Below are positions 8,097 through 52,141 of a stretch of DNA of 64,000 bases, one piece after another (position 1 is the stretch's first letter; each line of letters begins with the position of its first letter). A program made the position numbers and the translations under genes. This DNA is from Geomonas silvestris (GTDB lineage: Bacteria; Desulfobacterota; Desulfuromonadia; Geobacterales; Geobacteraceae). The notes below the pieces were generated by a model, which worked only from the letters and a program-made list of their open reading frames with translations, did no database searches and had not been told where the DNA came from. The DNA is taken from contig NZ_BLXX01000001.1 of assembly GCF_014193515.1 (NCBI RefSeq), forward strand, positions 744,001 through 808,000, written 5' to 3'.

Positions 8097-8330
8097 TTAC
8101 TTTGCAGCCGGAGCGGCTTCTGCAGCCGGAGCAGCTTCTTTCTTCTCAGCTTTTTTTGCTTTCTTTGCTTTTTTTGCTTTCTTTGCTTTTTTAACCGGAG
8201 CTTTTTCTTCTTTTTTCACTTCAGCGGCCGGAGCGGCAGCCGGAGCCGGGGTAGCGTCAGCAGCGAAAACAACGCCAGCGAAAGCAACAGCAACGAGAGC
8301 AGCAACTACGGAGGACAGAACTTTCTTCAT
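8097..8330 (-). CDS. Secreted low-complexity Ala/Lys/Pro-rich small protein
   Basis: The 77-aa product begins with a clear Sec signal peptide (MKKVLSSVVAALVAVAFAGVVFAAD, cleavage probably after VFA; given here only as motif and position 1-25 in meaning). The mature part is Ala/Pro-rich with a block of repeated KKA units, so it is strongly basic and probably disordered in the periplasm or envelope. AAGGAG sits just upstream of the ATG. A sigma-54-like promoter lies at 8376-8392. Function is unknown; binding of polyanions such as DNA, LPS or peptidoglycan would fit its charge but is speculation. Confidence 0.75.
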   Translation of the reverse strand: MKKVLSSVVAALVAVAFAGVVFAADATPAPAAAPAAEVKKEEKAPVKKAKKAKKAKKAKKAEKKEAAPAAEAAPAAK

Positions 8331-17432: not shown

Positions 17433-17514
17433 CACGGGTCTCGAGCCAAAAGGCAAAAAGGGAGCGGCACTTGTTCCCGATGCCGTCCCCCCTCTCCGTC
17501 GCCCGCCAAGTCGT

Positions 17515-17544
17515 CAATCGCCAAATCGCCAAATCGCCAAATCG

Positions 17545-17550
<6 letters not shown>
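17515..17550. repeat. Tandem 8-bp repeat (CAAATCGC) at the 3' end of the GGDEF gene
   Basis: Four near-identical units CAATCGC/CAAATCGC/CAAATCGC/CAAATCGT lie head to tail and end in CAATT. The repeat supplies the stop codon and last bases of the - strand gene at 17545. It belongs to a set of short AT-richer tandem repeats found in several intergenic gaps here. Confidence 0.7.
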
Positions 17551-32219: not shown

Positions 32220-32230
32220 AAAAAAATTGT

Positions 32231-32331
32231 TCTAGGTTCTATGTTCTAGGTTCTAGGTTCTATGTTCTAAGTTAGGCTCGTCCCAATATAAATCTAGGTT
32301 CTACGTTGCACACAAGAACGTAGAACCTAGA
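32231..32331. repeat. Heptamer tandem repeat (TCTAGGT/TCTATGT) and 15-bp inverted repeat
   Basis: From 32231 to about 32270 the 7-bp unit TCTAGGT or TCTATGT repeats six times. Further on, TCTAGGTTCTACGTT (32293-32307) and its exact complement (32317-32331) form a hairpin with a 9-base loop, built from the same heptamers. It sits between gabD and recD2 and could act as a weak terminator for gabD. A related array lies at 43963-43997. Confidence 0.75.
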
Positions 32332-37202: not shown

Positions 37203-37234
37203 AATTGTCAATTGTCAATTGTCAATTATCAATT
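37203..37234. repeat. Heptamer tandem repeat (TGTCAAT) next to the SCP gene
   Basis: The 7-bp unit TGTCAAT occurs three to four times (AATTGTCAATTGTCAATTG...) and ends two bases before the stop of the - strand gene at 37237. Related AATTGACA units occur at 38350-38372 and 43863-43893, and degenerate copies near 37046-37066. Confidence 0.7.
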
Positions 37235-43862: not shown

Positions 43863-43997
43863 GAATTGACAATTGACGATTGACAATTGACAACGAGAAC
43901 CTGGAGTGCCGTAGTAAAGTCACACCCACCAGGTACAGCCGCTCACCGCTCCCGCCCACCGTTTCTATAACATAGAACATAGAACGTAGAACCTTGA
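43863..43997. repeat. Two heptamer arrays between permease and ATPase genes
   Basis: At 43863-43893 the unit ATTGACA repeats four times with one variant. At 43963-43997 the unit CATAGAA/CGTAGAA repeats, the complement of the TTCTATG array near recD2. The two repeat families thus occur within 70 bases of each other inside one operon gap of 217 bases. Confidence 0.75.
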
Positions 43998-48841: not shown

Positions 48842-49831
48842 ATGAAGCGTTTCTTTGCCGCCGGTTTTGGTTTGGTTCTCGTAACCGCAGCCGCAGCCTC
48901 GGCCGCCCCGGTTCTCTACACCGGTGAGATCGGCGTGATGCGGGTCTCAGGAAAGTTCTGCGCATCCGATGTCTACGAAAGGTTGCCGCAGATCGACCTG
49001 GCGCTGGACCGCAAGGGGGACGGTGAGTTTAGCGGCTACTACTCGATCGAAGGGGTAAAGATAGGGAAGCTGAGCGGCGCTTCCGCCGCGCAGTTGTCGG
49101 TCGAGTACCCGATCGCGGATAAGGTCCTCTCGCAGGGGCACACGCTGTCGTTGGACCTTGGCAAGGATCCGGTAGCTGGGATTTTGCAGGAGAAGGGACT
49201 GGTGGAAAACGCCGAGGGGTGCGCCATCGAGGTCGGCGAGGTCCGTCTGTCGCCTCTTCCCGATGAAGACGCGGCGCAGTGGCTTACGCGTACCGAGAAG
49301 AGCTACCAGGCGCAAGCCCTCAGCAGCGAAGCTTTGAGCTTTATGAAGAAAGAGCAGCCCGGGAAGGCTATCCCGTTGTACCAAAAGGCTCTCTCCCTCG
49401 AAGAAGCCGCACAGAGTTCCGGGTCACCGCTCACCATCCTTTACGTCGACCAGTTGGCCCAGGCCTACGGCAAGAACCACCAGGTGGACCAGGGGATTGC
49501 GGTGCTCGAACCGCGGGTGGCGCAGTCCGAAGACCCGGAGAAGCGCTTTTACTCGGAAGGGCTCGCCCGGCTGCTGCAAGTAAAAGCCGCCGCCTACTAC
49601 CGGGACGGAAAGTTTAGCGAAGCGCTCCCCGTCTTCCGGCGGGCAATGACCTTGGATCCCTCGGAAAGCGCTTACCCGGTGGGGCTTGCCCGGACGCTTA
49701 TAAAACTGCAGCGAACCGATGAAGCCGCGGCCCTGATCAAGGAGGTTACGCCTCTTTTCGGCGACGAGAGCGACCGCGATGAGCTGAACCGGGTCAGTCA
49801 GGAGCTGCAAACACTTAAAAAGAAACAGTAG
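48842..49831 (+). CDS. Secreted tetratricopeptide-repeat protein
   Basis: The 329-aa product is started at the ATG with AAGGAG upstream, which opens a signal peptide (MKRFFAAGFGLVLVTAAAASA). Residues about 20-130 form a beta-rich domain of unknown type. From about 150 on there are TPR-like helices: SFMKKEQPGKAIPLYQKALS, LYVDQLAQAYGKNHQVDQGI, AAYYRDGKFSEALPVFRRAM. It is probably a periplasmic scaffold. No partner gene is adjacent. Confidence 0.82.
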   Translation: MKRFFAAGFGLVLVTAAAASAAPVLYTGEIGVMRVSGKFCASDVYERLPQIDLALDRKGDGEFSGYYSIEGVKIGKLSGASAAQLSVEYPIADKVLSQGHTLSLDLGKDPVAGILQEKGLVENAEGCAIEVGEVRLSPLPDEDAAQWLTRTEKSYQAQALSSEALSFMKKEQPGKAIPLYQKALSLEEAAQSSGSPLTILYVDQLAQAYGKNHQVDQGIAVLEPRVAQSEDPEKRFYSEGLARLLQVKAAAYYRDGKFSEALPVFRRAMTLDPSESAYPVGLARTLIKLQRTDEAAALIKEVTPLFGDESDRDELNRVSQELQTLKKKQ

Positions 49832-50003
49832 CATCCCGTTTGGACCTCTGGCAGCAGCGCCTGCGGGCACCTTTTTCCCAGCCCGATGACCTGGTTCCTT
49901 CCGAGGACGAGAGGCGTACCGGGATCTTTAAATCGAGGGCGGGTGTTTACGGCCCCCCCGGCCGATCGATGTAATCCGGCGTCTTTTTATTCGATTGGCC
50001 GAC

Positions 50004-50394
50004 GTTTTGATACAAAAGCGGTCCGTTTTTTTCAAACGGGTGGATTTCTGATTCAAAAGTCCGCCGTTTTTTTCAAACTGATCGATTTTTGATTCAAAAA
50101 ACGTCGGGCTTTATCAAACGGATCGATTTTTGATTTAAAAAACGTCCAACTTTTTCAAACGGATCGTTTTTTGATTTAAAAAACGTCCAACTTTTTCAAA
50201 CGGATCGTTTTTTGGTTTAAATGGATCGATTTTTCATTCAAAAAATCCTCCGTTTGTTCAAATCGACCATTTTCTGATTCAAAAAATCTCGAACTTTTTC
50301 AAATCGATCTATTTTTGATTTAAAAATCGAAAGATTTGTTCAAAGGGGCCATTTTTTGATTCAAAATCTTCAGTACTTTTTCAAACGAACGATC
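50004..50394. repeat. Diverged tandem array with exact 41-bp period (one 21-bp step)
   Basis: The anchor GATTCAAAA (variants GATTTAAAA, GATACAAAA, GGTTTAAA, CATTCAAAA) begins at 50009, 50050, 50091, 50132, 50173, 50214, 50235, 50276, 50317 and 50358. Every step is 41 bases except one of 21. Each unit has the near-palindrome TTTTTGATTCAAAAA, then a variable segment of 6-10 bases, then CTTTTTCAAACGGATCG. The array is far more AT-rich than its surroundings. Sequence has drifted but spacing has not. It is not CRISPR: the variable parts are too short. Confidence 0.9.
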
Positions 50395-50511
50395 TCGTGA
50401 CGAAAGTCGGGGAGGGGGAGTTGCAAACCGAGAGGTATGGCCGGAGCGGTTACTCCGTCTGGGGGGGAAGGGAGCAGATCGATCCTGTGGCGGGTGGATT
50501 TTGATAAATGA

Positions 50512-50544
50512 AAAGGCGGCGTATCGAATGATACTGCCGCCTTT
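50512..50544 (-). terminator. Terminator of the hypothetical gene at 50583-51230
   Basis: AAAGGCGGCGTATC (50512-50525) pairs with GATACTGCCGCCTTT (50530-50544) with one bulge. On the - strand it ends in CCGCCTTTTCATT. It lies 39 bases past the gene's stop codon. Confidence 0.75.
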
Positions 50545-50582
50545 CTTGATGGTGGAAAAGTCTCGCTGAACTGACGTGCAGT

Positions 50583-51230
50583 TCAGGTGACCACGATCGG
50601 TATCGGTGCGGTCCATTTGCCGGCATGTCCATCTTCGTGGTATCGCGCAAAGATATAGATCCGTTTGGCTGATTGAAGTTTCTTTAACTGGATACGGGAC
50701 CTCTGGTAGAGACCGGCACTGGCACCCGCCTCCACTTTCGGCTCATCGCTTATCCAGAGTTCGACAACTGCGCTCGCACGGTCCCGCTTGATGATAACAT
50801 CGATCGTTTCCTCTCCTGCGTTTTTGGCGCTGACAACCGGAAGTAGGTCGATGAGGCTGGGCGCCACTTTTACCTGCGGTTTTGCCTTCAACTCAAGGCC
50901 GCAGTCGTCGGCGTAGCTTGGGTCGTTGTGATACGTGACCATCATGTTCACGTGATGGGCGTTCATGGCGAGTGCCTGCTTCCCGGCCAGGACCATCGGG
51001 TGATTGTCGATCTTCTTGTTTCCCTCGCGCTCCGCCGCGTCAAGGGCGGCGACAACGGCATCGCAGATCTCCCGCAATTTACCTGAGTTTGAGACGTACG
51101 GCCCGAACTGTCCCTGGAAAGCTCGATGGTGGTCCACCTTGTCTGCATGGAGGCGCAGGCGGACAACGACCTCGACCGGCGCCAGACCGGCCATGTTCGT
51201 CTCAACCGTTTCAACAATGATTTGTGACAT
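50583..51230 (-). CDS. Hypothetical cytoplasmic protein (215 aa)
   Basis: The ATG at 51230 follows GGAGGG at good spacing; ten codons of open frame upstream lack a signal. The product begins MSQIIVETVETNMAGLAPVE. The first 110 residues are helical with many His and Asn (NHPMVLAGKQALAMNAHHVN). The C-terminal half looks beta-rich and fibronectin-III-like (RASAVVELWISDEPKVEAGA, IYIFARYHEDGHAGKWTAPI). There is no signal peptide. I do not recognise the family. The FnIII-like reading is inference. Confidence 0.75.
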   Translation of the reverse strand: MSQIIVETVETNMAGLAPVEVVVRLRLHADKVDHHRAFQGQFGPYVSNSGKLREICDAVVAALDAAEREGNKKIDNHPMVLAGKQALAMNAHHVNMMVTYHNDPSYADDCGLELKAKPQVKVAPSLIDLLPVVSAKNAGEETIDVIIKRDRASAVVELWISDEPKVEAGASAGLYQRSRIQLKKLQSAKRIYIFARYHEDGHAGKWTAPIPIVVT

Positions 51231-51418
51231 GATGTCCCTCCGCAAGATCGTGCTATGCAATATGCAGAGGAGTTTAATTTGTGTTTTTTAAGTTTCAAGT
51301 GCCGAGCACCATTTTTTTGCGAACGCGCGATTTTTTTTGGGGGGCGGGGACAGACTTGGGGACGGCAGTGTGCTATGCTGCGCCGTCGCCATTGCCACAA
51401 ACTGGATGAGGGGGAACC

Positions 51419-52141
51419 ATGGCCGCGAGCAACGGACCCAGCGCAGAGCTCCTTGAGTTGGTCAAAGAACAGCAGGCATTCCTGGAGATGTTGGCCCGCT
51501 CCTGGGTGAGCGACTACCGTGCCAGCGGCGGCTCGATCTTCTGCTCCAAGGGGTGCCGCAACTGCTGCAGCCTGGCGGTACACACCGGTTTCGCCGAGGC
51601 GCTGGCAATTGCCAGTTACCTCGATGACAATCTGAGGCAGGCGGTCAGCGCCTACGCTAGCAAACTCAAAGCTCTGGTCGGCGGAGTCTCGGCACTTCCC
51701 GAGTATCTGCGTCTGCACCGCAGGGAAATGGGCTACTGTCCGCTCCTCGACGCCTCGGGGTCCTGCAGCGTCTACCCGGTCCGTCCCCTTACCTGCCGCG
51801 CACTCATCTCCACCAAGGAAAGTTGCTGGTGCGCCACCGATTTTGCCACCGTTTCCGCATCGGATCGCGACGGGTATCTAGCCAGCCTGGATCGCCAGGT
51901 TGTCAATTATCCCAGCCACTACGTCGCCGTACTCCAGGAAAGCGCCCAGGAACTCGAGGACGTGGAAAACCGGAGGATGCACGAGCTCTTCGGGTTCTCG
52001 CTCTACGGCAACCTGGGGGTGCTGCTCGAACTCATCTGCCAGCACCGACTTGCCGAGGCGTGCCTGGAAGGGAGGGCGACCGTCGAGGCCGTCATCGCAG
52101 CAGCAGGTTTCGAGCACCCCTTGCTGCTGACCGTCGGCTAA
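51419..52141 (+). CDS. YkgJ-type cysteine cluster protein (first of two)
   Basis: The 240-aa product carries the YkgJ/CxxCxxCC-family pattern: CSKGCRNCCSLAV near residue 42-52, GYCPLLDASGSCSVYPVRPLTCRAL around 105-130, and a further CWC. These eight or so cysteines probably hold an Fe-S cluster or zinc. Function in the family is unproven. The ATG at 51419 follows GAGGGGGAA. A second, divergent member is encoded at 53640. The cysteine spacing is conserved between them. Confidence 0.85.
   Translation: MAASNGPSAELLELVKEQQAFLEMLARSWVSDYRASGGSIFCSKGCRNCCSLAVHTGFAEALAIASYLDDNLRQAVSAYASKLKALVGGVSALPEYLRLHRREMGYCPLLDASGSCSVYPVRPLTCRALISTKESCWCATDFATVSASDRDGYLASLDRQVVNYPSHYVAVLQESAQELEDVENRRMHELFGFSLYGNLGVLLELICQHRLAEACLEGRATVEAVIAAAGFEHPLLLTVG

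Follow-up and report, generated by a model that had tools for sequence, protein, structure and literature searches.

What holds the units of a tandem array in step with the DNA helix while their letters drift apart? The question is raised by a locus in a 64,000-nucleotide stretch of the Geomonas silvestris genome (assembly GCF_014193515.1, contig NZ_BLXX01000001.1, positions 744,001 to 808,000, forward strand), which is called the window here. An earlier note, made from the letters of the window, had described an array of ten anchors spaced 41 bp apart with a single 21-bp half step, and had read its conserved spacing and drifting sequence as selection for geometry, in the form of curved DNA, a phased protein-binding platform or a nucleoid element. 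We find that this array is one of a large class linked to a gene family across the genus, the existence and the linkage of the class both being very likely, and that in this class spacing is more strongly constrained than sequence. The array and its half step are as follows:

50004-50394, no strand: helically phased tandem array with period 41, in which about 19 half-units of 20/21 bp alternate between two types.
50216-50237, no strand: half step of 21 bp in the anchor listing, where B directly follows B, one A half-unit is missing and phase is kept.

The array is real and lies where it had been placed. Direct analysis set its extent at 50005-50394, Tandem Repeats Finder (TRF) called period 41 over 50005-50221 and 50229-50366, and the self-match of 50004-50394 peaked at lag 41 with 0.717, against a maximum of 0.404 at any lag from 6 to 63 in 1000 dinucleotide-preserving shuffles. 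Ten GATTCAAAA-type anchors stand at 50011, 50052, 50093, 50134, 50175, 50216, 50237, 50278, 50319 and 50360, the first of which reads GATACAAAA (this anchor and the first step were assigned by eye), so that eight steps of 41 and one of 21 confirm the spacing of the earlier note. The unit had to be revised, since a second anchor type, CTTTTTCAAAC, sits halfway between these anchors and makes the true repeat a half-unit of about 20.5 bp. With the half-units denoted A (CTTTTTCAAAC) and B (TTTTTGATTCAAAAA), 18 TTCAAA-type anchors listed from 50031 to 50380 follow one another at steps of 21, 20, 21, 20, 21, 20, 21, 20, 21, 21, 20, 21, 20, 21, 20, 21 and 20, that is, 21 from A to B, 20 from B to A and 21 from B to B. 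The reported half step is thus present with its phase kept, as a B-to-B junction. The self-complementary TTTTTGATTCAAAAA and the A/T tracts were also found in the units; the T-tracts are expected slippage sites, yet phase is undisturbed. The half-units are contiguous and diverged and have no spacers, unlike the near-identical repeats and unique spacers of a CRISPR array.

Next to the array lies a gene whose family was not seen by the earlier reader:

50583-51230, minus: linked gene, a member of a helical-plus-Fn3 family, its ATG at 51230 following a GGAGG (by eye).
50511-50546, minus: strong hairpin with a short T-run, terminator-like, between the stop of the linked gene and the array (by eye).

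This family occurs in 19 of the 19 genus genomes examined, with at least 7-14 copies per genome, a further search adding one per genome in four genomes. The 127 distinct family genes analysed were mostly the higher-scoring listed ones among 212 matches counted, with duplicates removed, and five with less than 600 nt downstream were left out. An array was scored where the self-match (autocorrelation) reached at least 0.5 in 160 nt at any lag from 6 to 63 within 1 kb. By this criterion, a tandem array follows the stop within 1 kb on the 3' side in 84 of 122 family genes. The best periods of all 84 arrays fall in the set 20, 21, 40, 41, 42, 43, 60, 61, 62 and 63. Counted by flank cluster (single-linkage on flank matches, some clusters mixing paralogs), an array is present in 42 of 71. 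At a threshold of 0.45, arrays were found in 93/122, three of them off the grid (39, 39 and 54). Control open reading frames of the own genome had an array in 19/532 cases (Fisher p 1e-56 against the family genes), a conservative figure that includes neighbours of family arrays and coding repeats. In a genome of the sister genus (G039), 5 of 13 family genes examined have a downstream array. Upstream arrays were found at 12/124 family genes, eight of them on the grid, and 28/122 genes have an array on neither side at 0.5. Loci that carry an array within 1 kb upstream but lack one downstream at 0.5 are L077 (period 41), L174 (63), L179 (63), L181 (21), L204 (42), L214 (21), L217 (21), L219 (63) and L220 (21).

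The downstream arrays begin at a median of 162 nt from the stop, have a median length of 452 nt (mostly 200-660 bp) and span GC contents of 36-62% (5th-95th percentile). In 84% of the 122 family genes, against 8% of shuffles, the 80 nt that follow the stop form a fold below -25 kcal/mol, and because of this strong fold most arrays probably lie outside the transcript of the linked gene. Sixteen flank clusters have several members, and in several of them gene and array are co-inherited, whereas some mix periods of 21, 42 and 62 or have no array.

The arrays share their step to a far greater degree than their letters. Averaged over the 84 arrays, the self-match peaks at the repeat lags 20/21, 40-42 and 60-63, and at 10/11 it falls below zero. 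Among 878 pooled spacings between recurrent 11-mers, which are not independent inside one array and come from extents that, like those behind the lengths, GC contents, mean self-match, folding, A-tract and dyad results, were drawn with grid lags and so lean slightly to the grid (the choice of the 84 arrays being unaffected), 90% lie on a 20.5-bp grid that covers 16% of integers. Steps of 20 and 21 were counted 216 and 202 times and steps of 19 and 22 nine and seven times; spacings of 40, 41 and 42 occurred 45, 225 and 44 times, and 39 and 43 twice each. By cluster, step 21 is found in 26, step 20 in 23, step 19 in five and step 22 in four. Indels do occur in the arrays, at 0.14 per mismatch, so a shortage of them is not what keeps the phase. 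The abundance of 20 and 21 beside the rarity of 19 and 22 looks like a helical constraint rather than mere inheritance, and selection on a two-turn helical phase is likely.

We compared 45 ortholog pairs from four flank clusters, with protein identity of at least 60% and a TRF consensus of 38-44, so that very different periods could not enter. The period was equal in 45/45, and the copy number differed by more than 0.5 in 34/45; copy number changes unit-wise. When the TRF-period filter was lifted, consensus calls of 20, 60, 120 and 164 bp were also obtained, and several arrays had no consensus. Unit identity ranged from 41/41 to 19/41 over a random best-rotation baseline of about 17; four pairs, all with L159 or L167, are near background (19-20 of 41), and other ortholog units are nearly fixed (38/41) at a synonymous divergence (dS) above 1. 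Some lineages thus keep the unit sequence over a certain period, and other lineages exchange it. The array units of paralogs are mostly unrelated in sequence and keep the same grid. That geometry is conserved while sequence drifts, as the earlier note had proposed, is therefore strongly supported by the periods of the 84 arrays, the equal periods of the pairs and the rarity of 19- and 22-bp steps.

At the window locus, gene and array are present or absent as one. The surrounding features are:

48842-49831, plus: flanking gene for a TPR-repeat protein, 77% identical in G008 (the genome that supplies the sister locus) and convergent with the linked gene.
49832-51348, no strand: array-plus-gene segment without a counterpart at the syntenic G008 site (blastn).
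51419-52141, plus: flanking CxxCxxCC-domain gene, matched in 17/19 genus genomes.

Two blocks of blastn homology in the interval from the TPR gene to the CxxCxxCC gene are separated by 1,517 bp in the window and by 45 bp in G008, the difference being taken up by array and linked gene; both are absent together from the sister locus. Neither an array (self-match at least 0.5) nor a family gene was found beside the CxxCxxCC gene of the other 16 genomes, within flanks of up to 1.5 kb and with one locus cut by a contig end. Gene and array were therefore either jointly gained at the window locus or jointly lost elsewhere. The earlier note had named absence from all close relatives, explained by recent slippage, as grounds for abandoning a selected geometry. 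At this locus the array is indeed absent from those 16 genomes, and the answer to the objection comes from the class, the family and the same geometry beside it recurring across the genus.

The linked protein of the window, a small one whose helical domain is novel, is predicted by an AlphaFold2 model to have helices at 19-33, 50-70 and 79-102 and a C-terminal Fn3 sandwich; its mechanical open reading frame begins with a TTG at 51260, and no obvious signal peptide was seen by eye. Pfam gave no match for it, and 16 family members gave mainly weak Fn3-type matches and none to a Rep family, ParR, ParB, TubR or ToxN; PADLOC likewise found no ToxN match among these 16. NCBIfam made no assignment for the family. 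No transposase or nuclease signature was found in Pfam or NCBIfam, nor a Y1-transposase signature for the linked gene, and the members tried had no match in viral, plasmid and phage collections. The family has a median isoelectric point of 8.6. Nonsynonymous divergence was below synonymous divergence in every pair with a defined dS, with ratios mostly of 0.1-0.4, showing that the family protein is under purifying selection.

Related arrays also occur elsewhere. Searching 39 genomes at the DNA level revealed another array in the own genome (G000), at C4:172024-172368, which is 76% identical to the window array over 174 nt and shares its 20/21 rule with different linkers, and a short related array in G006 (C9) in the order A-B-B-A-B with steps of 21, 21, 20 and 21; G015 carries the corresponding array with two further half-units (flanks compared by eye). 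The pattern TCAAA every 20-21 bp matches 14/48 family genomes with many different linkers; a reversed control also matches often, so the pattern is not specific. These matches gave a first sign that two-turn arrays may be general in the genus. In 824 kb of the own genome we judged seven phased arrays and three arrays of other periods to be noncoding; the open frames that run through C1:311041 and C1:382061 are such as periods 42 and 21 allow, and an array at C4:27741 (period 40, 0.53) was not counted, as it lies within a frame of 345 codons. Two of the seven lie beside family genes and five do not, one of these being at a contig end where a neighbour may be missing. Over 295 nt, the orphan at C1:311041 matches a gene-linked G008 array at 80% identity, the two having no flanks in common (non-syntenic). 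The own-genome family proteins that were compared with the G008 protein beside that array reach 30% identity at most. Such orphans may be relics or independent sites.

The orphan at G000:C1:382061-382581 (L266, about 2061-2581) is a 21-bp array of CAGGTCGACGTACCTGAAGCT between what appear by eye to be sensor kinase and response-regulator genes. A one-turn relative, TCAAATGCGC repeated at exactly 10 bp, is found at G014:C26:3334-3448 (L041) and G009:C1:3126838-3126892 (L045). Matches to the cyclic di-GMP-I riboswitch (Rfam RF01051) lie near a family locus (L162, 865-940, minus) and, as two tandem matches, near the G006 orphan array (L007, 5520-5596 and 5706-5782). A different dispersed repeat family, a GTTCTAG-type heptad array that is also regular at 21 bp, occurs in the window at 32229-32273 and in the own genome at C4:58681-58861, and short heptad arrays with the related units AATTGTC / AATTGAC occur in the window at 37203-37234 and 43864-43893. 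Two further short window arrays are at 8149-8192 (period 9/18, GCTTTCTTT) and 17504-17548 (period 8/16, CGCCAAAT).

Dyad symmetry in the units was scored in 70 of 89 arrays (84 gene-linked and five orphans), those with a TRF consensus of 19-64 bp. Reduced to one representative per cluster, with orphans among them, 35 of 38 had a best dyad score above the mean of the shuffles (Wilcoxon 7e-7); individually, six of the 38 reached p<0.05, and the window unit had p=0.19. A separate comparison placed 63/84 arrays above the control mean, and examples found by eye are AACTTATATAAGTT, AATAGCGCTATT and, in the window, TTTTTGATTCAAAAA. This modest enrichment would fit sites for symmetric binders.

We therefore consider that the arrays may be platforms of protein-binding sites on one face of the helix, each forming a cis-linked module with the adjacent gene, whose protein probably serves it; we give this reading an even chance. 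It is favoured because phase is constrained and letters are little constrained in the long term, because GC-rich units are tolerated, and because dyads are modest and copies change by whole units. With sites every two helical turns (20-21 bp), bound molecules would align on one face and could touch. The constraint would be protein binding to duplex DNA, and the binder would be the linked protein or a complex containing it, the linkage of gene and array making this protein the first candidate. Arrays would grow and shrink by unequal exchange, off-phase units being lost. Our best guess is that the nucleoprotein structure would be an iteron- or centromere-like filament or tether in which the unit sequence serves as a switchable address. 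Two observations weigh against the linked protein as the binder: no DNA-binding fold is recognised in it, and among paralogs within one genome there is almost no relation between protein similarity and array similarity. The interpretation of the earlier note is thus partly supported, its phased protein-binding platform being the part that fits the class-wide geometry. Promoter autoregulation, replication-strand bias and a role of the array as promoter of the next gene were also tested and were not supported.

The arrays might instead be neutral minisatellites, in which an ancestral array of about 41 bp travelled with an ancestral gene and drifted, unequal exchange copying whole units so that the period was inherited without selection. 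The frequent changes of copy number between orthologs, whole-unit homogenisation with self-match of up to 0.98, the joint inheritance of gene and array in several clusters and the origin of the equal-period pairs in only four flank clusters, which could partly reflect inheritance, are all expected under this account. However, a period free to shift between 20 and 21 should also reach 19 and 22, both of which are rare although indels are present, the grid is common to arrays with unrelated units, and the noncoding arrays of the own genome are on the grid in seven cases and off it in three; we regard neutrality as unlikely. A mobile or selfish cassette of the RAYT/REP kind, whose protein helps to move or keep the array and whose leftover or dispersed copies are the orphans, would account for the joint absence of gene and array from G008 and from the CxxCxxCC flanks of the 16 other genomes, as well as for the resemblance of the orphans at C1:311041 and on C4 to gene-linked arrays elsewhere. 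Yet the searches above turned up neither a signature of a transposase or nuclease nor, with the members tried, a match in the collections of viruses, plasmids and phages; at the single empty site read, inspection by eye showed neither terminal repeats nor a target duplication; the 16 multi-member flank clusters suggest much vertical inheritance; and mobility itself does not explain two-turn phasing, which makes this account improbable.

Structured RNA, or a source of RNAs of about 20 or 41 nt, is what a transcribed array might provide, and the arrays do show better folding when set against column-permuted copies (median z of -1.7, with 40% under -2). This account is quite improbable: DNA dyads also produce foldability, the 20/21 alternation fits the helix and has no obvious RNA meaning, the strong fold stands between stop and array in most loci, and Rfam gave no family at the gathering cut-off in the arrays of eight loci and only sub-threshold matches (E 0.2-0.7) in the window. 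The last account, intrinsically curved DNA in which phased A-tracts form a bend or nucleoid element without specific binding, agrees with the window array, whose A-tract phasing (10.25 bp) was matched by 1 of 1000 shuffles and which may well be curved individually. Among arrays of up to 50% GC, phasing beat 60 shuffles in 25 of 46, against only 5 of 38 above that value, making 30 of 84 in all, while 18 of the 84 have less than one A-tract per 82 bp and the mean self-match has no 10-bp sub-period. Curvature, which the earlier note had offered, thus holds for the window array taken alone and was rejected as the common element of a class with so wide a range of GC, where we consider it very improbable.

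A bolder form of the same-face platform, which we put forward tentatively and regard as rather unlikely, would be a new chromosomal module. Each member of the helical-Fn3 multigene family would typically have its own satellite-like array, in which over long times only the two-turn geometry persists and concerted evolution repeatedly replaces the recognition sequence. Together, array and protein would build a nucleoprotein filament specific to its address, which in bacteria would correspond to the fast-evolving satellites of centromeres; orphan arrays would offer additional docking sites elsewhere in the chromosome. DNA elements are usually defined by their sequence. This class seems to be defined by spacing: the letters are mostly unrelated, and the two-turn step and the position behind a member of one gene family recur many times in each genome. 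Should the linked proteins bind the arrays, the two would amount to a new system for organising or marking DNA, one whose specificity can be replaced, and satellite-like DNA and its protein would offer a natural experiment on co-evolution in bacteria.

Among known systems, the iteron arrays of R6K, F, P1 and pSC101 are tandem direct repeats of about 17-22 bp with a two-turn spacing that puts them on one face, next to the gene of their binder. The arrays described here resemble them in their directly repeated half-units of 20/21 bp and in their one-face phasing; they differ in that the linked protein has no Rep or winged-helix match, the family has many copies per genome, arrays are mostly several hundred base pairs long and the units of paralogs are mostly unrelated. 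Partition centromeres such as pSK41 parC (20-bp repeats), F sopC (43-bp repeats) and tubC are also phased sites, which carry a nucleoprotein filament, and share the phased tandem arrangement and periods near 20 and 41-43. Unlike them, the present arrays are scattered through chromosomes, their family has no ParR, ParB or TubR match and no plasmid match for the members tried, and at the window locus the neighbours are the TPR and CxxCxxCC proteins, with no motor ATPase or GTPase and none of the partners ParR/ParM, SopB/SopA or TubR/TubZ. Repetitive extragenic palindromes and the mosaic elements built from them (REP/BIME) are tied to RAYTs, which are Y1 transposases; the likeness lies in intergenic repeats tied to a gene family with dispersed copies that lack the gene, and the difference in the absence of a nuclease match, in head-to-tail arrays and in helical phasing. 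In type III toxin-antitoxin systems an RNA array and, 3' of it, a ToxN-like gene share a transcript, whereas here the array is 3' in 84/122 cases, behind a hairpin in most, and the 16 members searched have no ToxN match.

The closest prior mention is the genome of Geobacter bemidjiensis, in which unexplained direct repeats of 6-42 nt were found in intergenic regions genome-wide (PMC2996986); class 1-4 multicopy elements were described in G. metallireducens (PMC2700814) and other multicopy families in P. carbinolicus (PMC3543383). The available text of these three papers mentions no link to a gene family and no helical phasing, and individual arrays may figure in the supplementary alignments of PMC2996986. 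A search for literature on Geomonas tandem repeats or Fn3-linked intergenic Geobacter repeats, covering freely available main texts, gave no such report among the matches listed. The array class is apparently undescribed, and the linked gene family unstudied. Going by the main text (PMC2996986), our arrays may share with the G. bemidjiensis multicopy repeats the form of short direct repeats in intergenic DNA of the same bacterial family; unlike the G. bemidjiensis and G. metallireducens repeats as the available text describes them, they turn over their sequence at a fixed spacing, and they offer a candidate context for some of the unexplained intergenic direct repeats reported from Geobacter since 2009-2010.
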